Assembly (NCBI GenBank): GCA_001001705.1
Contig: LCOG01000010.1
Location: 1-35,410, forward strand
Source of the DNA: Parcubacteria group bacterium GW2011_GWA2_47_26
GTDB taxonomy: Bacteria; Patescibacteriota; Patescibacteriia; GWA2-47-26
Length of the DNA: 35,410 nt
Direction of reading: 5' to 3'
Position numbers and translations under genes: made by a program. A model generated the notes under the pieces. It did not search any database, was not told the DNA's origin, and saw nothing but the letters and a program-made list of their open reading frames with translations. Of this stretch, positions 8,651 to 29,282 are shown one piece after another; positions within the stretch are counted from its first letter, which is position 1; every line of letters begins with the position of its first letter.

Positions 8651-9865
8651 TTAAATTTGTTCCTGCAATTCTTGCATAAGGTCCAGATAAAATTTCACAT
8701 TATGAATTGAGGCCAAACGCAAGGCTAACGGCTCACCAACCTTAAATAAATGGCGCAAATATGCCCGGCTGTGATGTGTGCAAGCAAGACACATACAATG
8801 TTTATCAATCGGATTAAAATCTAGGCGATATTTTTCATTAAAAATATTCACCACGGAATAAAATTTTGGATTTTGGATTTTGGATTTTGGATTTCGCACA
8901 TATAGCTGCCCATGCCGAGCATTTCGTGTCGGAAGCACACAGTCAAACATATCCACTCCCTGCCGTACCGCCTCAACAATCTCTTCGGGCTTTCCAAGCC
9001 CCATTAAATACCGCGGCTTATCTTTTGGTAAAAATGGCATCACCCATTCCATAACCTTCATCTTTTCCTTAAATGACTCCCCCACTGAAACGCCGCCAAT
9101 TGCATAACCATCAAAATCTAAATCCACCAAATCGCGCGCCGACTGCTCGCGCAGATCTTTATACACCGACCCCTGAACAATGCCAAACAACAGATTTTTA
9201 ATTTTGTATTTTGTATTTTGTATTTTGCACCTCTCCGCCCATCTAGTCGTCTGTTCAACTGCTTCACGCGCTATTTTTTTCTCTATCGGATAAGGAGCAC
9301 ATACATCAAGCGCCATCATTATATCCGACCCTAGCGTACTTTGAATTTCAACCACTCGTTCAGGCGTTAATAAATCCTTGCGGCCGCCTAAGCGATCAAT
9401 AAATTCAGCGCCATCTTTTGTAATCCGCACATCATAGTCCGCCTCCCCTTTGTCATTCTGAGCATAGCGAAGAATCCCGTACTTTAATCGACGAGATCCT
9501 TCGTCGCCTTGCTCCTCAGGATGACGAGAACGTCGTGCCAAACTAAAAATCTGATACCCTCCACTATCAGTCAATATCGGCCCCTCCCACCCCATGAATT
9601 TATGCAGCCCATGAGCCTTTTTTATTACCTCAAGACCAGGGCGCACAAAAAGATGGTAGGTGTTGGACAGCAAAATCGGCGCGGACAGCCGTCGCATATC
9701 CTCCGCGTCCAAAGTTTTCACCGCCCCGCGCGTAGCGATGGTCATGAAAAAGGGCGTCTTGATAACTCCATGCCGAGTTCTTAATTCTCCAACTCGCGCC
9801 TCACCACGTTTTGCTTCTTTCAGCATCTTAAAATAATCTTGCATAATATTTCGACAGTATATCAC
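8651..9865 (-). CDS. tgt: tRNA-guanine(34) transglycosylase
   Basis: FFMTIATRGAVKTL, LLSNTYHLFVRPG, DSGGYQIFSL, FGIVQGSVYKDLR, GGVSVGE, MFDCVLPTRNARHG, CMCLACTHHSRAYLRHL. Confidence 0.97.
   Translation of the reverse strand: MIYCRNIMQDYFKMLKEAKRGEARVGELRTRHGVIKTPFFMTIATRGAVKTLDAEDMRRLSAPILLSNTYHLFVRPGLEVIKKAHGLHKFMGWEGPILTDSGGYQIFSLARRSRHPEEQGDEGSRRLKYGILRYAQNDKGEADYDVRITKDGAEFIDRLGGRKDLLTPERVVEIQSTLGSDIMMALDVCAPYPIEKKIAREAVEQTTRWAERCKIQNTKYKIKNLLFGIVQGSVYKDLREQSARDLVDLDFDGYAIGGVSVGESFKEKMKVMEWVMPFLPKDKPRYLMGLGKPEEIVEAVRQGVDMFDCVLPTRNARHGQLYVRNPKSKIQNPKFYSVVNIFNEKYRLDFNPIDKHCMCLACTHHSRAYLRHLFKVGEPLALRLASIHNVKFYLDLMQELQEQI
8862..8894. repeat. heptanucleotide tandem repeat (ttttgga)x4 within tgt
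   Basis: Direct reading of attttggattttggattttggattttggattt. Confidence 0.95.
9200..9228. repeat. heptanucleotide tandem repeat (attttgt)x~4 within tgt
   Basis: Direct reading of attttgtattttgtattttgtattttgc. Confidence 0.95.
9452..9525. repeat. gtcattctgagcatagcgaagaatccc...ctcaggatgac repeat inserted in tgt
   Basis: Encodes the extra segment RHPEEQGDEGSRRLKYGILRYAQNDK; family match to 10617-10680. Confidence 0.85.
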
Positions 9866-10282: not shown

Positions 10283-11272
10283 CTAAATTTTCTCAACTAC
10301 CCGCAATTTTGCGCTTCTTGTTTGGGAATTTACTCTAATCTCCTCCTGCGTCGGCACAAGCGGTTTTTTAGTTAATAATTTCATTTTTACATCGGTCCAA
10401 TCTTTAAAAAACTGCTTAACAATCCTGTCCTCAAGCGAGTGAAAGCCTAGAACGGCAAACCGTCCTCCACTCTGCAATACCTCAAGCGCTTGCGGCAATG
10501 TCTCTTGCAATGCATTAAGTTCATCATTAACAGCAATGCGCAAAGCCTGAAATGTTTTTGTAGCAGGATGAATACCGCCGATCCATGGCACTCTCTGCCA
10601 AACGCTGTCATTCTGAGCCCGTGGCGAAGAATCCCGTCCTTTCTTAATATAGCGAGATCCTTCGCTACGCTCAGGATGACGCTTACGCGCCAGTTTTTCT
10701 CGGTAAGCCATAAGTATAATTTCTACAAGCTGTTTTGTCGTCACAATCGGTCTAGTCTTCCTCCCCGCAACAATCTTATTAGCAATCTCGCGCGCGAGCC
10801 CCTCCTCACCATATTCCTCCAGCAGTTCAGTCAATTGCTGCTGATTCCAACCATTTACAATCTCTGCCGCGCGAATCCCAGTTTTTGGATTAAAACGCAT
10901 ATCCAGCACTTCATCCTTCATAAAGCTAAACCCGCGTTCCCTCTCTAGTGTCGATGTAGAAAACCCTAGATCCAAAAGAATTCCATGCACTGGTCCAAAT
11001 TTATTCTCTTTAACAATTGCTGCCAAATCTCGGAAATTTGCATTCACTGTGATCAACCGCTCACCATATCTAGACGCTGGACGCTGGACGCTGGACGCTT
11101 CCAAAGCCTCTGAATCCGCATCTATCCCGAGCAACCGTCCATTTGGTGCAGTATGTGCTAAAATAGCCTTCGCATGCCCCCCATCCCCTAACGTGCAATC
11201 AATAAAATTCTGATCAGCTTTAGGGTCAAGAAACGTCAGTATCTCGTTGACCATTACGGGAATATGCGGCAT
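10283..11272 (-). CDS. rsmH: 16S rRNA (cytosine(1402)-N(4))-methyltransferase RsmH/MraW
   Basis: HIPVMVNEILTFL, DCTLGDGGHAKAIL, GILLDLGFSTSTL, GRFAVLGFHSLEDRIVKQFF. Confidence 0.97.
   Translation of the reverse strand: MPHIPVMVNEILTFLDPKADQNFIDCTLGDGGHAKAILAHTAPNGRLLGIDADSEALEASSVQRPASRYGERLITVNANFRDLAAIVKENKFGPVHGILLDLGFSTSTLERERGFSFMKDEVLDMRFNPKTGIRAAEIVNGWNQQQLTELLEEYGEEGLAREIANKIVAGRKTRPIVTTKQLVEIILMAYREKLARKRHPERSEGSRYIKKGRDSSPRAQNDSVWQRVPWIGGIHPATKTFQALRIAVNDELNALQETLPQALEVLQSGGRFAVLGFHSLEDRIVKQFFKDWTDVKMKLLTKKPLVPTQEEIRVNSQTRSAKLRVVEKI
10617..10680. repeat. gtcattctgagcccgtggcgaagaatccc...cgctcaggatgac repeat inserted in rsmH
   Basis: Encodes RHPERSEGSRYIKKGRDSSPRAQND in frame. Confidence 0.88.
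11073..11099. repeat. heptanucleotide tandem repeat (gacgctg)x~4 within rsmH
   Basis: Direct reading of gacgctggacgctggacgctggacgctt. Confidence 0.95.
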
Positions 11273-11291
11273 ATTTTTTTCTTATCCTCGG

Positions 11292-11446
11292 GTTGTTGCG
11301 TGGTGATAGTTGCGGTAAAAGTGTCGCGGAGGCCTTGCGGGCATGGTTTCCGCCAAAGGCGGAAGAGCAAGGCCGAGCGCAAGCAGCGGCTCACTCGCTG
11401 GGCGAGCCGACTGCGGCTTTTACGCAATCTATCACCACGCAACAAC
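11292..11446 (-). other. structured element A: candidate three-way-junction RNA or palindromic element in mraZ-rsmH intergenic region
   Basis: 18-bp perfect terminal stem gttgttgcgtggtgatag/ctatcaccacgcaacaac; internal fold and core shared with element B. Confidence 0.7.
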
Positions 11447-11452
11447 TGCCCC

Positions 11453-11893
11453 CTAAATTCCGTATTCCTTTAACTGCTCTGCTGTTTGACTAATATCTTC
11501 AGCCTCGCGCGCATGGTGTGTCTCCCATCGCCCTTTATCCCATACCTCTAACCGGCTGCCAGTTCCAACCACCACAACTTCTTTTTTCAATTGTGCATGC
11601 GCCGCAAGATACTCCGGCACCAGCACTCGCCCCAGCTGATCAAGTTCCGCTTCTACCGCCCCAGAAAAAATAAAGCGCGCCAGTGACCGGGCGCTTGCTT
11701 GAGTAAGAGGCAACTTGCTTATCTTATCCGCCAATTCTGTCCAGGTATTCTGTGGATACACAAAAAGGCAAGATTCAAATCCGCGCGCAATTACAACGGT
11801 TTTTCCCAACATATCGCGAAGACGCGCCGGAAGAGGAATCCGTCTTTTAGCATCCATGGTGTGTTGATAATTTCCCATCAACATAGCCTCCAC
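11453..11893 (-). CDS. mraZ: transcriptional regulator MraZ
   Basis: MGNYQHTMDAKRRIPLPARLRDML; position upstream of rsmH. Confidence 0.95.
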   Translation of the reverse strand: MEAMLMGNYQHTMDAKRRIPLPARLRDMLGKTVVIARGFESCLFVYPQNTWTELADKISKLPLTQASARSLARFIFSGAVEAELDQLGRVLVPEYLAAHAQLKKEVVVVGTGSRLEVWDKGRWETHHAREAEDISQTAEQLKEYGI

Positions 11894-11935
11894 TAAACTA
11901 ACTTTTATTTTCAGTACTCATTCCTCCTTCCCCGT

Positions 11936-12092
11936 AGGATAAATTTCGGCGGCTCGCAGCAAAAATGTTGCGGAATCCGAGCGGGCATGGTGCCCCGACC
12001 GCTGTCGGGGCGAGCGAGGATGAGCACAAGCACCGGTTTCCCCGCTGGGGAAACCGAGTGCGGTTTTTGCGCGAGTTGCCGATATTTATCCT
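11936..12092 (-). other. structured element B: candidate three-way-junction RNA or palindromic element in mraZ leader
   Basis: Terminal stem aggataaatttcggc/gccgatatttatcct; same core as element A. Confidence 0.7.
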
Positions 12093-12098
12093 ATTTAT

Positions 12099-12153
12099 CC
12101 ACAATGTTATCCACTTCTTTCCACTTTTGTTTGCGTGTACCTCTATTATAGCA
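12099..12153 (-). promoter_or_regulatory. mraZ promoter (extended -10 TGCTATAAT at 12145-12153) with GTGG repeats (candidate MraZ boxes)
   Basis: Minus strand: TGCTATAAT then AAAGTGGAAAGAAGTGGATAACATTGTGGATAA. Confidence 0.6.
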
Positions 12154-12352
12154 GAAAATTTACCACTAATCAAACCTGTCAAATAACCAAAAAATGCCTG
12201 AAAATATAAAGAAATTACTAAAATACCGCTTAATCCGCCAATATAGTGTGGATAAAAGCTGTTTCACAACACCAACTAGCGTAAAAAGCCCAAAACCTTT
12301 CCAACTTGACAACTTTTCTATCTAGTATTAATGTATTAACACGTGGTCATTC

Positions 12353-12728: not shown

Positions 12729-13406
12729 CTATTTGAAAATCTCCTTTTTTAACTTCCATGCCTCCGCAATAAAAAAGTCTTTCCACTCGCGATGGTCAAG
12801 CGGTTTAAGCATGCGGGAAAAATCGGATGACTCGGAGGCCATTAAAAATCGAGATCCAATTTGCACCGAGTCAATGTGCCAATCAAATTTTGTCTTTGCA
12901 AGAACTATGAGCTTGGGGATGGAGTAGTGATACTTTTGAATGATGAAATATAGATCAATAAAGTCACGCGCTCGCGGTTTAATCGCGACTGTGTGCACTT
13001 TGTTAACGGCGATGTTAAGCACGCTATCAACATCTATATTTTTGTAATACATTCCCTTTTCAATACGCCCAAAATGATAATAATTGAAATCCACCTTTAG
13101 TAATTCTTTGCTGGGAAAAGTGAGTTGAAAACTATGCAAACCAAGAAATTGGTGGTAGTCAATGTGAGTTAGCTTTAACGCGGTCTCCACTTTTTTAATA
13201 AAGGTGCGTGTTGAGGGTAAATGAATTTCTTTTTCTGAAAAAAGGTCAACATCTTCAGAAAGACGGTGCTGCAGGTAAAATGCGGAAAGCGGTGTGCCGC
13301 CCGTAAAATAAAAATTCTTGCAAAAATAGGGTTATTTGGATACCATATCAAGCAGTTGTGTCTGCTCCGCGGTCAGGATTGGAAGATTCTCTTTTTGTTT
13401 GGCCAT
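12729..13406 (-). pseudogene. AbiEii/AbiGii-like nucleotidyltransferase toxin, interrupted by in-frame TAA at 13332-13334
   Basis: Extending the 12729-13190 ORF upstream in frame gives KNFYFTGGTPLSAFYLQHRLSEDVDLFSEKEIHLPSTRTFIKKVETAL; further upstream MAKQKENLPILTAEQTQLLDMVSK* PYFC... Confidence 0.75.
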
Positions 13407-22723: not shown

Positions 22724-23923
22724 TTATTTACAGCAAGCAAATTGCAAAGTGCTGGAACAAACTGTCATCCACCCTACCCCTCCAACTCCTTGGTCAAAAT
22801 CCCAATATGTTCCCAAGCCAGAAGTATTGTTCGTCCAGCCCACGCAGTCATTAGCCAGAGCTGTGTACCCCGGCGGCCCTTCAACAATCCAAAAAGATCC
22901 ATCCTGTGGGATTATTGAATTGCATCTAATACTATTCATAATCTCATCCGTAGAACAAACGTGAGTCCCCGTTATCGCGGTATTGCATAATGTATTAACG
23001 CCTCTATACCCACCCTGACTGCCATTATACGAAGCACTCGTTGATCCTGCATACACCGCTCCAAAACAACCAGTCGCGGTAATGGAGCCGTCCACATTTA
23101 TTGTACCACTGGTCTGCGTAATAATAGAATCTCCTAGGGCTGTCAAGCCAGTAAATCTAGGCAACGTGTTAACAGTGCCGCTGCCGCTCAAGCTCCCGCC
23201 AGCCAGCGTATTGCAAGTTAAAGTTCCGCCAACTCCGCTAACATACTGCCCAGCAGGACAAGCCGTTGGAAACCCAGTCAACCGCGCCCATGGCACAAAT
23301 CCGCCTTGCAGTATGCCTGTCCAACGCACATCACCGGCCACATCAAGCGCATATGCTGGGGCCGTTTTCCCACCCTGCTGAAACAACAGCTCTGACATCG
23401 CCATGTCCGGAGCATGAAGACGCAAGCTGAAATTGCCGACATTGCCCAAATAATTCCCAATATTCAAAGCTGTCGCGCCCATACTGTCTACCCGTATTGC
23501 TTTGCCCGAATTTAAATACAGGTCGCCGCCATCGCTCTTCATGTCTCCAGTTATATTAAAGAACGCTGGTTGAGAAGTGTTAGGACTCCGCATAATATAA
23601 GACACGCTTGGACATACTCCTGTACAAGGATCTATAGTCGTGCCTTCCGGACAATTTCCTGTGCGCGGCGACTGGCAAGCGCCACTGCAATTAATCTGTC
23701 CTGATGGGCAAGCGCAAGTACCGCAACGATCCGCGTACTGTCCGCCTGACGGAGAAGGACACAATGCACCAATAGTAGAAACTGGCGCAGTGCAGCCTCT
23801 CCCCGCGCAATAGATTTGCGCACCCGGACAAGGGCCTTCGGCACGGACAGGTGATGCGCTCAACAATGCCAAACCAAGGAAAACTATGCTAATTAATAAA
23901 GCATTTTTTATTAAACTACTCAT
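22724..23923 (-). CDS. secreted Cys-rich modular surface protein with C-terminal lectin-like candidate domain
   Basis: Signal peptide; GDLYLNSGKAIRVD; GGYRGVNTLC...CSTDEIMNSIRC...CVGW...FACCK. Confidence 0.85.
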   Translation of the reverse strand: MSSLIKNALLISIVFLGLALLSASPVRAEGPCPGAQIYCAGRGCTAPVSTIGALCPSPSGGQYADRCGTCACPSGQINCSGACQSPRTGNCPEGTTIDPCTGVCPSVSYIMRSPNTSQPAFFNITGDMKSDGGDLYLNSGKAIRVDSMGATALNIGNYLGNVGNFSLRLHAPDMAMSELLFQQGGKTAPAYALDVAGDVRWTGILQGGFVPWARLTGFPTACPAGQYVSGVGGTLTCNTLAGGSLSGSGTVNTLPRFTGLTALGDSIITQTSGTINVDGSITATGCFGAVYAGSTSASYNGSQGGYRGVNTLCNTAITGTHVCSTDEIMNSIRCNSIIPQDGSFWIVEGPPGYTALANDCVGWTNNTSGLGTYWDFDQGVGGVGWMTVCSSTLQFACCK

Positions 23924-23932
23924 AGAATAAAT

Positions 23933-25256
23933 CTAACGACAACACGCTAAAGGGTAACTTGAATTACAATTTTGCGCCCAACCTACTCCGCCATTGGCAT
24001 CAAAACTCCATATTGTGCCATTAAATGTTGCATCGCTTCCACCATAGGTCCATCCCCGACAATCATTTGTTTGCGTTGGTAACGCAGGCGCGCCATTGGC
24101 AATCCAAGCGCTTCCTGTAGCAGTAAAAATCGGACTGCTCGCAGGATTTTCACAGCGTATACTTTCCAGAATTTCAGCCGTGGAGCAAACGTGAGCGCCT
24201 GGAAAAGCACTAGCACACCGAGCATGTGCGGCACGATATCCTTGCAGGCTTCCACTAGTGATAGCTCCATTCACAGTAGTGGAAGTCATGCCCGCAAACA
24301 CCGGCCCAAAACAACTCGTCGCTGTAATAGAGCCGTCCACATTTATTGTACCACCACTCTCGCTCATAATGGAATCTTCTAAAGTTGTTGCGCTTGTAAA
24401 TTTAGCCACTCTATTGGCCGTACCAGTACCGCTCAAGCTCCCGCCAGCCAGCGTATTGCAAGTTAAAGTTCCGCCAACTCCGCTAACATACTGCCCAGCA
24501 GGACAAGCCGTTGGAAAACCAGTCAACCGCGCCCATGGCACAAATCCGCCTTGCAGTATGCCTGTCCAACGCACATCACCGGCCACATCAAGCGCATATG
24601 CTGGGGCCGTTTTCCCACCACAAATCAATGCTTCCCTGCTGAAACAGTAATTCTGAAATTTTTTGATAAGGAGCATGCAGGCGCAATCCAAAACTATTTC
24701 CGACGGTATCGTAGTTCCCAATGTTTAATGCTGTCGCATTGACATCGTCTATCCTAATCGCTTTGCCATTGCTTAAATAAATATCGCTGGCACTCTGAAG
24801 ATTCCCTTGTATATTAATATAACCGGTTTCTTCAGAACCTGGAAAGGGCACAAATTGCCGTGATACATATTGAGGAGTGGGCGAACAAGCGCGACTGCAA
24901 TCCGGTCCAGTATATGTTCCGGGTTGTCCGCCAATCGTACATGCCCCCGAGAGCACTTGAGTCTCACAGCCCGACGCTCCAGTACAATCCGCAAATCCGC
25001 TATTGCACACCAGAGTACAAGTCAAACAGCTAAAATTCTGATTAGCGCTCAAGGCAGGTTCCGAAGCTCCTGTGTAACAGGTATAATTAGGAGCAATGCC
25101 GCAAATATTTTCGGTAGGGGTACCGGCGCAGGAAAATGTCATAATCCCCCGCGTACCCGCCGTACAGGTGCTGATTGCTTGTGCAACGCCAATAGAAGCA
25201 AGGGAAGCGAGCCCTAAAACTAGTGATACAAAGGTAATAAAACGAAATCTCTCCAT
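23933..25256 (-). pseudogene. modular surface protein split into two ORFs (24588-25256 and 23933-24721) by a frame-breaking junction
   Basis: N-part ends ISELLFQQGSIDLWWENGPSICA*, C-part resumes GGKTAPAYALDVAGDVRW; the intact paralogue reads MSELLFQQGGKTAPAYALDVAGDVRW. Confidence 0.75.
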
Positions 25257-25258
25257 AA

Positions 25259-26716
25259 TTATTTACAACACGCAAATTGGTGGGATGTACTGCATGAAGT
25301 TGCCAGTCCGCGTCCATTTTCAAAATCCCACATTGCGCCATAGGAGACTCCTGCATTACTTTTCCATCCCTGACAATCATTAACAGCCGGAGCGGTAAAT
25401 CCAGGCAGACCATTGGATACCCAAGCAAATAATCCGGCGGTCGGCATTGCTACTCCGCAATTAATGGAATTCAGCAATTCTGTAGCTGTACAAACATGGC
25501 TTCCTTGTACCGCAACCGAACAAAGCGCATTTACTCCGCCATAACCGCCCCGTAAACCGTCATACGGTCCGCCTGTTGTCTGGCCTTGATACACCGGCCC
25601 AAAACAACTCGTCGCTGTAATCGAACCCGCCACATTTATTGTACCACTGCTAGTTTCGGTTATAATTGAATTTCCTAAAGTTGTCGCGCCTGTAAATTTA
25701 GCTAATCTTTTGCCTGTCCCCGTACCGCTCAAGCCGCCGCTACCCGCGCTGGCCGGAGTACTGCAAGTTAAACCTCCACCAATTGCGCTAATATACTGTC
25801 CTGAAGGACACTCTAAAGGAAACCCAGTCAACCGCGCCCATGGCACAAATCCGCCTTGCAGTATGCCTGTCCAACGCACATCACCGGCAATATCAAGCTT
25901 AGACAATGGCGACGTAACGCCAATCCCCATATTGCCACCCACAATAATCCCTCCTTGCACCTGCACAATGTCATTATTATCGCCTATCCATAAATTATCG
26001 GGAGAGCTAGCCGACAATCGCGAATATATAGCATTGGCATAAACATTGCCCGCCGTGATAAGACTGCCTGATGGCGCACCGCTGGGAAATATAAATCCAG
26101 TGCCCACTGCTAAATTGCCGCCGATGGTCCCGTTGCCAATGATATTAAAAAACCCGGATTGAGCTGACGCGGGATTGACAAGCACATAAGCGTCAACGCA
26201 AGAACCTGTGCAAGGGTTATATACCCTTGGCGACGGACAAGATGCGCTGGTATTGGTTTGGCAATTGTATCCCACGCCTGTCTCACAATCAGTAAAGCCG
26301 CCCGCGCATCCGCCGCAGCCCGTACACGAATCATAGCCTCGATTTGATCCGGAAGGACAAACCGCCGCGGTTGGCTGGCATGCACCGCTGCAAAATGTCT
26401 GGCCGCTTTGACAAACGAGGTTTGTACACGCGCCGCATTCGTCAATTGTCCCCACTCGGCCGCCGGAACCACTGCACGGATTTCCCTGACTGCTAGCAGG
26501 CGCCACGCACGCACCGCCACAGGAAACAGAACCCGGGGGACACGCTTGAGCATTTACCCCTACTGGTACCGCGAAAATCACTATTACCGCTACCATCATT
26601 GCGAGCACAGCGAGGTAATCTCGAAATCGCCACGCCCCGTTACGACGGGGCTCGCGATGACATAGGGTATATATTTTTTTTATCGACAACATAAAATTCG
26701 ATTTGCTTCCGAGCAT
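25259..26716 (-). CDS. secreted Cys-rich modular surface protein (start possibly at an internal ATG)
   Basis: Signal-like TM; Cys-rich N-terminus; GGYGGVNALC...VCTATELLNSINCG...FACCK. Confidence 0.82.
   Translation of the reverse strand: MLGSKSNFMLSIKKIYTLCHREPRRNGAWRFRDYLAVLAMMVAVIVIFAVPVGVNAQACPPGSVSCGGACVAPASSQGNPCSGSGGRVGTIDECGACTNLVCQSGQTFCSGACQPTAAVCPSGSNRGYDSCTGCGGCAGGFTDCETGVGYNCQTNTSASCPSPRVYNPCTGSCVDAYVLVNPASAQSGFFNIIGNGTIGGNLAVGTGFIFPSGAPSGSLITAGNVYANAIYSRLSASSPDNLWIGDNNDIVQVQGGIIVGGNMGIGVTSPLSKLDIAGDVRWTGILQGGFVPWARLTGFPLECPSGQYISAIGGGLTCSTPASAGSGGLSGTGTGKRLAKFTGATTLGNSIITETSSGTINVAGSITATSCFGPVYQGQTTGGPYDGLRGGYGGVNALCSVAVQGSHVCTATELLNSINCGVAMPTAGLFAWVSNGLPGFTAPAVNDCQGWKSNAGVSYGAMWDFENGRGLATSCSTSHQFACCK
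26594..26661. repeat. catcattgcgagcacagcgaggtaatctcg...ggctcgcgatgac repeat in the N-terminal coding region of the surface protein
   Basis: Inverted ends TCATTGCGAGC/GCTCGCGATGA; encodes CHREPRRNGAWRFRDYLAVLAMM. Confidence 0.75.
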
Positions 26717-28218
26717 GGACGCGCGTATCCTCCCCCGCCTCGCGCGTCAAATATCCAAACAATGCCTTGCGACTGCAAACCGCTGACAACCCCTGTTTGA
26801 GTCCAACCGTAACAATCGTTTGTCGGGGTCGGGAGAGATGGCGCGCCATTCGCGATCCATGCAAATACGCCGGCGGGTATTGTTGCGCGCAAAGCAGTTT
26901 TAGTCATATCTGTCCAAATTGATCCGCAATGAATACTCGTCATAACTTCCTCGGTCGCGCACTGATGGCTCCCGGCAAACGCCGCACTGCAAAGCGCATC
27001 AACGCCTCGGTATCCGTCAGCAGGAGCGCTCGCGCCATTCAAATTGCCATTGTATGTTCCGCCAGTCGCACCGGCAACCGTTGCCCCTAAACAACCGGAA
27101 ACTGTAAGATCGCCATTTTCAGTAAGCTTCAACCGGTCATTCCCTTTCCAAAATCGCAGCTCATTGCTGGTCTGATCCGAATAAATACCCCAGTGTTGAT
27201 CACTGCCGCTCTTCAAATTTATTTCGGCGTTACCGCTCGGATTGCTAAGATAAATTCTATCACCCTTGACATCCAATGTATAGGCCGGAGTTGAGGTGCC
27301 CGTTCCCACACCAAGACGAAAATTTGTATTATCCCAATGCAAATTCGTATTCTGGCTTAAACTGCTCGCTCCAGTCCAAAACGCAATCATATTGGCCGCG
27401 CCGCCGGAAAGGCCGCCGCCACCGCTTACGGCCGGCGCCTCACATGTCAGAGTTCCACCTACGGCCCTGACATATTGGCCACTTGGACAAGCCGCGGGAA
27501 AACCTGTCAACCGCGCCCAAGATACAGATCCGCCTTCTGCCGCTGTCCAAGAACTTCGACACTCCGCACCGAGACATAAAGTATTTGCAATCAGCCTACC
27601 CTCCCTAATATTAACATCAATTCCAGTTGCCCCTGATCCCCAATTGCCTATGGTCAGCGTTGAGACGCCACCGGCATCAATGTGTATGGCCTTGCCGGAA
27701 TTAAGATAAAGATCACCTCGCCCCGACTCCGTTCCTATAATCCGCAAAGAATCAGCTATACGTAATTCGCCAGGATTATTAAAATTAATATAAGCCGGGG
27801 TCGGGGCAATACAGGACCCAGTAGAATTGGGTGGGTCTTGAATATAGCCAGAACGACAAGAACCACACGCTCCCGTGCATTCATTAGACGTAACGCGTGT
27901 GGCATCCGCACAAGATCGGCGCGGACTGCAAGCGCTCCCGCAAATAATGGGCAGGGCCGCAGGACATAACCAACTGCAACTCGTGCAACTGAATGCCTGT
28001 CCAGTGATAGTACTCGGTCCCGGCAATTCGGCATGACTGCGGCATTGTCCCACACCACCTACTGTTCCGCACGCATACGGACGCGTGGGATCATCGCATG
28101 AAATAGAATATTGCGGCCAGCTTGAAGAACAAGAAACATGACTCGCCTCAACCGGCCGGGCTAAAAACAGAAACAGGAACAGCAGAGCTAGATAAAAATA
28201 ATTTTTCATCGGCAACAT
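26680..28218 (-). CDS. secreted Cys-rich modular surface protein
   Basis: Signal peptide; GDLYLNSGKAIHIDAGGVSTLTIGNW; WARLTGFPAACPSGQYV; YRGVDALC...CATEEVMTSIHCG...ILCCR. Confidence 0.85.
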   Translation of the reverse strand: MLPMKNYFYLALLFLFLFLARPVEASHVSCSSSWPQYSISCDDPTRPYACGTVGGVGQCRSHAELPGPSTITGQAFSCTSCSWLCPAALPIICGSACSPRRSCADATRVTSNECTGACGSCRSGYIQDPPNSTGSCIAPTPAYINFNNPGELRIADSLRIIGTESGRGDLYLNSGKAIHIDAGGVSTLTIGNWGSGATGIDVNIREGRLIANTLCLGAECRSSWTAAEGGSVSWARLTGFPAACPSGQYVRAVGGTLTCEAPAVSGGGGLSGGAANMIAFWTGASSLSQNTNLHWDNTNFRLGVGTGTSTPAYTLDVKGDRIYLSNPSGNAEINLKSGSDQHWGIYSDQTSNELRFWKGNDRLKLTENGDLTVSGCLGATVAGATGGTYNGNLNGASAPADGYRGVDALCSAAFAGSHQCATEEVMTSIHCGSIWTDMTKTALRATIPAGVFAWIANGAPSLPTPTNDCYGWTQTGVVSGLQSQGIVWIFDARGGGGYARPCSEANRILCCR

Positions 28219-29282
28219 GTAAATCTTAATGAAGAATTACAAGGTGTTTGACTCCCCTGTCCTCCGAGAGTATCAAACCTCCAAGTACGCCCAAGCGCAC
28301 CGCTATCGCCGCTGGTCCAACCCTGACAGTCATTCGCCGCCGCAATATAACCCGGCGGTCCGCCCGAGACCCAACCACTGCCGCTTGCCGGCAAGGTCAC
28401 ACCGCTGGGCAGTCTCCCGCTGCAATTTATGGTGTGCAAGATTTCTTCGGCTGTACAAATGTGAGCGCCTGTCCCGCTAGCGCTGCAAAAATCTCGGTTC
28501 GCTGTCAAATAACCTCCTGCGGCACCGGTCGCATTCGTTGTAGAAAACGCTCGAAATACATTAACCAAACAGGGATCAAACGAACCGCCCGGCGGTATAA
28601 CACCACCTCCGCCGCCACCCACTGCATCGTCTCCGCAAACCCATGCACTGCCACCTGAATTACGTTTCAAAATCTGCCCTGACCCGCATTCAGCCCCATC
28701 ACTGGCCGCAAAATTTCCCCGAATTTTACCTGATGCGCGTATATCACCGGCCCCAATACCAGCGACGTCTACTGCTCTAGTGCCCGTTGTGGGGCCAACC
28801 GCAAGACTACCCTGCACACGCAACTTGTCATTATCATCTCCGATCCAAATATCGTCAACATTTCCCGGGATTTCCCGTGAAAGGAGAGCGTTAGTATAAA
28901 TATTTCCAGCCACAATTAAACTCCCATTCACTGCGTTAGATACTAATCCTTCATATGTCCTAGTGGTCGGTGTCGGAATTCCCACCGTTAGCTTTCCTCG
29001 CGCTCGACTATTTAACTCCACATCAAAAGCCGCATCACTTTGCACTCCTCCTAATATAGTGGAGTTCCAAATCGGCGGCGGAACATTGCAACGACCCGAA
29101 ATACAACGCAGGCCAGATCCGCAAGCAGTATCCGCTGTACATGCGGTCTGCGCCAAAACGCCTCGTAAAGCAAAAGTGCCCGCGATTGAAAGTAAAACCG
29201 AGGCTAAACTAACGATAATAATCTGCTTACGCGACATTGCCGTAAAATTATGGCCTAAATCCTCTTTCCAGTATAATACCAC
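28206..29282 (-). CDS. secreted Cys-rich modular surface protein (start probably MSRKQ at 29237)
   Basis: Signal peptide; DDIWIGDDNDKLRVQGSLAVG; HICTAEEILHTINC...FTCCR. Confidence 0.82.
   Translation of the reverse strand: MVLYWKEDLGHNFTAMSRKQIIIVSLASVLLSIAGTFALRGVLAQTACTADTACGSGLRCISGRCNVPPPIWNSTILGGVQSDAAFDVELNSRARGKLTVGIPTPTTRTYEGLVSNAVNGSLIVAGNIYTNALLSREIPGNVDDIWIGDDNDKLRVQGSLAVGPTTGTRAVDVAGIGAGDIRASGKIRGNFAASDGAECGSGQILKRNSGGSAWVCGDDAVGGGGGGVIPPGGSFDPCLVNVFRAFSTTNATGAAGGYLTANRDFCSASGTGAHICTAEEILHTINCSGRLPSGVTLPASGSGWVSGGPPGYIAAANDCQGWTSGDSGALGRTWRFDTLGGQGSQTPCNSSLRFTCCR

Follow-up and report, generated by a model that had tools for sequence, protein, structure and literature searches.

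Two hairpins flanking mraZ apparently belong to an undescribed, cross-phylum family of non-autonomous mobile palindromes

The mraZ-rsmH region of contig C10 in genome G000 (842 kb, 26 contigs) contains two long hairpins on the same strand, raising the question of whether they act on the neighboring genes as RNA or belong to a dispersed DNA element. The window, meaning the whole 35,410-nucleotide stretch analyzed, carries element B in the mraZ leader (11936-12092, minus strand, outer arms included), followed by mraZ (11453-11893, minus strand; Pfam MraZ, 1.6e-37), by element A (11292-11446, minus strand, outer arms included), which fills the gap between mraZ and rsmH, and by rsmH itself (10283-11272, minus strand; Pfam Methyltransf_5, 1.5e-96), as the earlier note had placed them. 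The core of A (11310-11427, minus strand), located 24 nt from the mraZ stop codon, comprises the inner part of stem P1, P2 with a bulged T, and P3, together with conserved unpaired CTC/TC and ACCATGCCC, and matches two models of the family with 132.7 bits (R1) and 126.1 bits (R2). Its 18-nt outer arm at 11292-11309, the 3′ arm on the minus strand, is the perfect complement of the 5′ arm at 11429-11446, forming a perfect 18-bp outer P1 stem. The core of B (11953-12075, minus strand) is also matched by R1 and R2, and its outer arms (3′ arm, 11936-11950; 5′ arm, 12078-12092) pair with a single A·A mismatch. Upstream of B lies a promoter-like TTGATT-17-TATAAT (12145-12173, minus strand), which is a consensus match only, from which B and A would both be co-transcribed with mraZ-rsmH. 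The explanation that best fits the evidence below, at a probability of about 80%, is that A and B are two copies of one mobile DNA element, non-autonomous and approximately 120-170 bp long, which a recombinase would move in trans.

The three-way junction of P1, P2, and P3 claimed for the minus strand is borne out in both elements, as A folds with -93.1 kcal/mol (z = -11.0) and B with -82.4 kcal/mol (z = -6.5), and shuffled sequences were never as stable. A motif search of G000 gave two more copies, and R1 was built from these four. All of their 41 helix positions pair, save two P3b positions that are mispaired in two copies and one end pair with a gap in two. Among 93 distinct rows, 87.7% of paired cells are complementary, compared with 55.4% when partners are shuffled, with covariation scores of 0.719 and 0.196; in a set of 88 distinct rows picked by a short motif alone, blind to P1 and P2, the corresponding values are 81.5% and 51.7%, and 0.633 and 0.165, where both alignments are model-fitted, which favors pairing, and a partner shift of one to three columns reduces pairing to 47% or less. 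Two-sided changes are present in 40/40 pairs in both sets. The covariation that the earlier note had read from helices differing in sequence yet still pairing is therefore real, holds also in motif-selected copies, and became overwhelming once a covariance model made from the copies had found homologs. The architecture of the family consists of the P1 stem, a P2 hairpin with the bulged T and a CCCNGCG loop, and P3 with CTCGCTC and ACCATGCCC(GC) blocks, and the unpaired blocks are conserved across the family. Additional tertiary pairs were considered and dropped since none is prominent: of the 40 strongest mutual-information pairs, 39-40 fall within or near known helices. Six copies in G038 (L021, L030, L042, L045, L046, and L049) hold another repeat (TGTCATCCTGAGC..GAAGGATCT) nested in the P3 apical loop, that is, one palindrome within the hairpin loop of another.

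The class of the elements was not recognized at first reading, and a search of Rfam (4227 families) returned nothing above the gathering threshold in the window, nothing at E<5 in 11200-12200, and tRNAs only at ten further loci. With R1, 5 copies were found in G000, and relatives hold 7-8 (G001), 10 (G022), and 13 (G038). R2 identified at least 29 positive genomes of 389 in the class and, in the phylum set of 389, again at least 29, both being minimum figures since scoring was limited to nine candidates per genome, and the covariance-model searches yielded about 200 copies altogether. GTDB genomes were also scanned with a 21-base motif. The matches listed include many Patescibacteria lineages as well as Omnitrophota, Aminicenantes, Bipolaricaulota, Auribacterota, WOR-3, and others, and R2 recovers the full fold in most of these motif-matched loci. 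In whole-genome searches, one complete Omnitrophota chromosome had about 10 copies, and an Aminicenantes chromosome had 17. A few lone motif matches in unrelated taxa (e.g., Halosaccharopolyspora and Singulisphaera) find no confirmation from the model and probably reflect chance. The element is thus present in several other phyla and in approximately 1/13 of the sampled genomes of Patescibacteria, a group with very small genomes; the bacteria that carry it are mostly uncultured. An origin from phages, plasmids, or E. coli was rejected, as B has no blastn match in the phage, plasmid, and E. coli collections and the element motif has no match in IMG/VR.

If the hairpins served mraZ and rsmH, their homologs would be expected to cluster at these genes. 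Instead, copies are scattered, and mraZ or rsmH lies near a copy in only three other fetched loci, so that an RNA regulator of mraZ/rsmH was set aside as the main reading. The genes upstream of copies are diverse and share no gene or pathway. Close inverted pairs of copies occur on one contig at L073 (G371) and at L079 and L080 (G264), some of them directly past an apparent tRNA 3′ end.

Filled and empty orthologous sites were found within the same genus behind GroEL, between GrpE and DnaK, behind SecA, and behind RNase J, with more at several loci of G451 and G491. Since orthologous sites without the element exist, the element is mobile. Among the options that the earlier note had offered, the dispersed palindromic element is upheld by the scattered copies and orthologous empty sites, while the OMEGA-like RNA and the preference for a transcribed RNA are not supported by the results given below. 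At L325 (G491), compared with the orthologous L321 (G451), a newer copy lies inside an older one, whose right half is missing. The element may also be read as protein: at L005, it lies in frame in a gene for a ComEC/MBL-type protein and encodes approximately 48 additional residues. The comEC-type ortholog in the sister genus (G001) has an element at the identical position and in frame, and the homologs of other class members are without it. The arms of the two comEC-type copies differ by compensatory changes, with GGACAC/GTGTCC in one and AGCCAC/GTGGCT in the other. Orthologous copies are retained across genera or species both here and at the end of AtpD. At L335 (G491), the ortholog of L318, the outer P1 stem alone is left, as though the core had been deleted.

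Whether the pairing is maintained in RNA or in DNA can be approached through the mismatches. RNA helices tolerate G-U but not A-C, whereas the two strands of a DNA duplex or cruciform are equivalent, and G-U and A-C mismatches are expected to be about equal. Counted only where Watson-Crick pairs flank on both sides, G-U and A-C number 34 and 51 among about 2,600 pairs in the helices without P3a (P1, P2, P3b, and P3c), and 14 and 37 in the outer arms. In contrast, 33 tRNAs from the same loci gave 12 G-U and 0 A-C (Fisher p 5e-5, a rough guide because the sequences are related). P3a is an exception, with 39 G-U to 12 A-C. Since G-U is no commoner than A-C outside P3a, the constraint on pairing, or its mutational maintenance, seems to act mostly on the DNA. 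The single G-U of P2 in A, from which the earlier note had argued for a transcribed RNA, accordingly fails as a sign when the whole family is considered. This also serves as a caution for RNA discovery, as overwhelming covariation need not imply RNA and a count of G-U against A-C can discriminate.

The reading that competes most directly over these data is a cis-acting RNA with an effect on the gene before or after it, whether riboswitch-like, an RNase III processing site, or an mRNA-stabilizing 3′ structure. The typical site, a short gap between co-directional genes 5-30 nt past a stop codon, agrees with such a role, as do the conserved unpaired blocks, the covarying helices, and the retention of orthologous copies at comEC and the AtpD end. 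Orientation agrees as well: copies in the class set have the direction of both neighbors in 45 cases and oppose both in 7 (p 7e-8), and two independent sets pooled gave 34 and 16, with genes called as simple ORFs so that individual cases may be wrong. The strong bias of the class set is also expected from RNA function, and no other remaining argument speaks as strongly as gene-sense bias for an effect at the RNA level or for insertion linked to transcription. However, an RNA of this kind would have to serve genes of no shared class or pathway, pair without an excess of G-U over A-C outside P3a, be translated as codons within a protein gene in one copy, and carry unrelated outer arms in near-identical copies, all without an Rfam family, and it is therefore quite improbable as a general explanation. 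As copies are gene-oriented and lie directly past stop codons, a co-opted cis effect may occur at individual sites.

The outer arms provide the most distinctive evidence for the mobile DNA element. Complementary arms scoring at least 9 are found in 72.5% of 204 copies, the control rates in the same loci being 0.8% for random positions and 0.7% for positions past stop codons, and complementarity within a copy is perfect or near-perfect. Yet copies with core identities of 0.90-0.96 have unrelated arms in G000, G038, G223, and G393. For example, the cores of B and of the C5 copy (L007) are 96% identical and their outer arms differ, and L042/L049 (G038) and L278/L289 (G393) likewise combine 90-96% core identity with unrelated or largely different self-complementary arms. 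Slow covariation was rejected as the source of the arms on account of these pairs. By sequence comparison, the arms belong to the site and not to the shared core. Other copies do share arms, and compensatory arm changes are seen in orthologous or sister copies, as in ATCACCCGCAAAGG, ATCACCAGCAGAGG, and ATCGCCAACAAAGG (G038) and in L332 compared with L343. Variable arms beside a constant scaffold superficially resemble the guide and scaffold of an OMEGA or other guide RNA, or a ribozyme, of an RNA-guided nuclease for which the private arms would be the guides. That option, raised by the earlier note, is hardly credible given that the arms are self-complementary within each copy, the pairing is not RNA-like, and the TnpB/Cas12f zinc ribbon (PF07282) has no match over the cut-off in 16 element-bearing genomes.

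Private inverted arms are unlike the direct duplications of most transposons, which makes the mode of insertion a testable question, and the empty sites disagree over the origin of the arms. At SecA and RNase J, the left arm holds host sequence. Because the left arm at SecA continues the host sequence of the empty site, the alignment points to inverted copying as the source of the right arm. The empty allele at L324/L338 forms a short palindrome of its own, with identical flanks, suggestive of hairpin targeting or excision, whereas the empty sites at GroEL and L316/L333 have neither a palindrome nor a trace of one arm. A pre-existing palindrome at every target was therefore rejected as a general rule, since none is present at the GroEL and L333 empty sites and L338 does have one.

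Another alternative, a MITE of a DDE-type insertion sequence, would have terminal inverted repeats and a direct target duplication and would depend on the transposase of the insertion sequence. The inverted termini CTGRYA/TRYCAG in G451 and G491 resemble such ends, and imperfect direct repeats of 9-10 bp are found at two sites, namely GGAGTACTAG/GGACTATTAG at GroEL and GTGCTCGGA/GTCCTCGCA at comEC. However, other lineages have other termini, the direct-repeat score over all copies is close to the control, flank similarity is mostly inverted rather than direct, and no uniform target-site duplication was seen among the copies. A DDE-type MITE is an unlikely reading.

No mobilizing enzyme was found among the TnpB-type zinc ribbons and Y1 transposases searched. 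The Y1 transposase (PF01797) occurs in 10/19 positive and 8/18 negative genomes, is absent from several multi-copy genomes, and is present in 5/5 positive genomes of other phyla. Ten Y1 loci were scanned, and only one element copy was found, approximately 2 kb away in G000. A RAYT/Y1 link was thus rejected, as presence does not clearly differ between positives and negatives and no linkage to copies was seen at the loci scanned. These results bear on a REP/REPIN-type element whose mobility depends on a RAYT (Y1, HUH) transposase, which would also be palindromic, intergenic, and of low to moderate copy number, with RAYT-like Y1 genes in many hosts. Such an element is unlikely here because the inspected Y1 genes have no copy within about 2 kb, their ends bear different short palindromes, PF01797 is missing from 9/19 positive genomes, and the unit is a three-way junction of 120-170 bp. 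A REP unit is described as a tagged hairpin of 20-40 bp (PMC3733652). Small Y1 genes at L306, L312, L313, L314, and L315 have ends marked by their own short palindromes, which are genome-specific and partly overlap the gene start or stop.

A mechanism for the mobile element can be proposed on these grounds. A single strand of the element, or an extruded cruciform, would fold as the three-way junction, and a recombinase acting in trans would recognize the folded single strand and insert it. The private arms would be formed upon insertion or shortly thereafter, and could later be kept complementary by arm-to-arm correction or selection. Their source would be either a palindrome already in place, with the insertion landing at its tip, or fold-back synthesis that makes an inverted copy of the flank. 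Either selection or entry into the non-template strand, exposed behind the last ribosome, would produce the orientation bias. The enzyme would most naturally be sought among HUH/Y1-type single-strand transposases, although that step is doubtful. More tentatively than the mobile-element reading itself, and at somewhat less than even odds, the family may represent a new class of mobile DNA, widespread across bacterial phyla, that targets palindrome tips or inversely copies host flank through an enzyme that would read the folded strand. If so, its insertions would be enclosed by a private inverted repeat in place of a direct target duplication. The G-U excess in P3a, the negative search for a mobilizing enzyme among TnpB-type zinc ribbons and Y1 transposases, the lack of Y1 in several multi-copy genomes, the other palindromes at the ends of inspected Y1 genes, the want of a uniform target-site duplication, the strong orientation bias of the class set, and the conflicting empty sites count against the mobile-element explanation.

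The general kind, a MITE-like or RPE-like dispersed palindrome, is already known. In IS200/IS605, group IIC introns, and integron attC sites, a folded DNA strand or hairpin is the recognition signal. By analogy, the element may work through a similarly recognized folded strand, but it has no transposase, intron, or integrase part, and membership is not claimed. ERIC/IRU, other MITE-like palindromes, and bcr1 are imperfect, roughly 120-170 bp long, intergenic, and probably transcribed. The element is likewise an imperfect intergenic palindrome of similar length, and it is set apart from their descriptions by the site-specific outer inverted repeat and cross-phylum spread. It shares with REP/BIME/REPIN a palindromic form behind genes and hosts that often have Y1 genes, but it is not a GTAG/CGTC-tagged hairpin of 20-40 bp and is unlinked to a Y1 gene. 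Rickettsia palindromic elements (RPE) are about 150 bp, dispersed, and located within protein genes that are read in frame (PMC10969869). Compared by description, the element resembles RPE in being palindromic, dispersed, approximately 150 bp long, and read through in frame once here, in the comEC-type gene of G000 and G001. It differs in being mostly intergenic, in occurring in many phyla rather than one genus, and in having private outer arms. Searches of open-access literature found no account of the element, its fold, its breadth, or its private inverted arms, and an earlier description elsewhere is possible. A and B are real members of what is apparently an undescribed, cross-phylum, non-autonomous mobile palindrome.

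Other features were also noticed in the window. On the minus strand, rsmH and tgt (8651-9865) contain in-frame insertions, RHPERSEGSRYIKKGRDSSPRAQND and SRHPEEQGDEGSRRLKYGILRYAQND, that resemble a dispersed repeat type, CATCCTGAGC..GAAGGA, translated as protein, and the interior of rsmH has a short tandem repeat of gacgctg units (11080-11100). An AbiEii-like nucleotidyltransferase (12729-13190, minus strand; Pfam 2.1e-5) adjoins a trp-repressor-like gene. Further along, a row of related secreted-type genes (22724-29282, minus strand) with the common segment GDVRWTGILQGGFVPWARLTGFP looks like a local family expansion.
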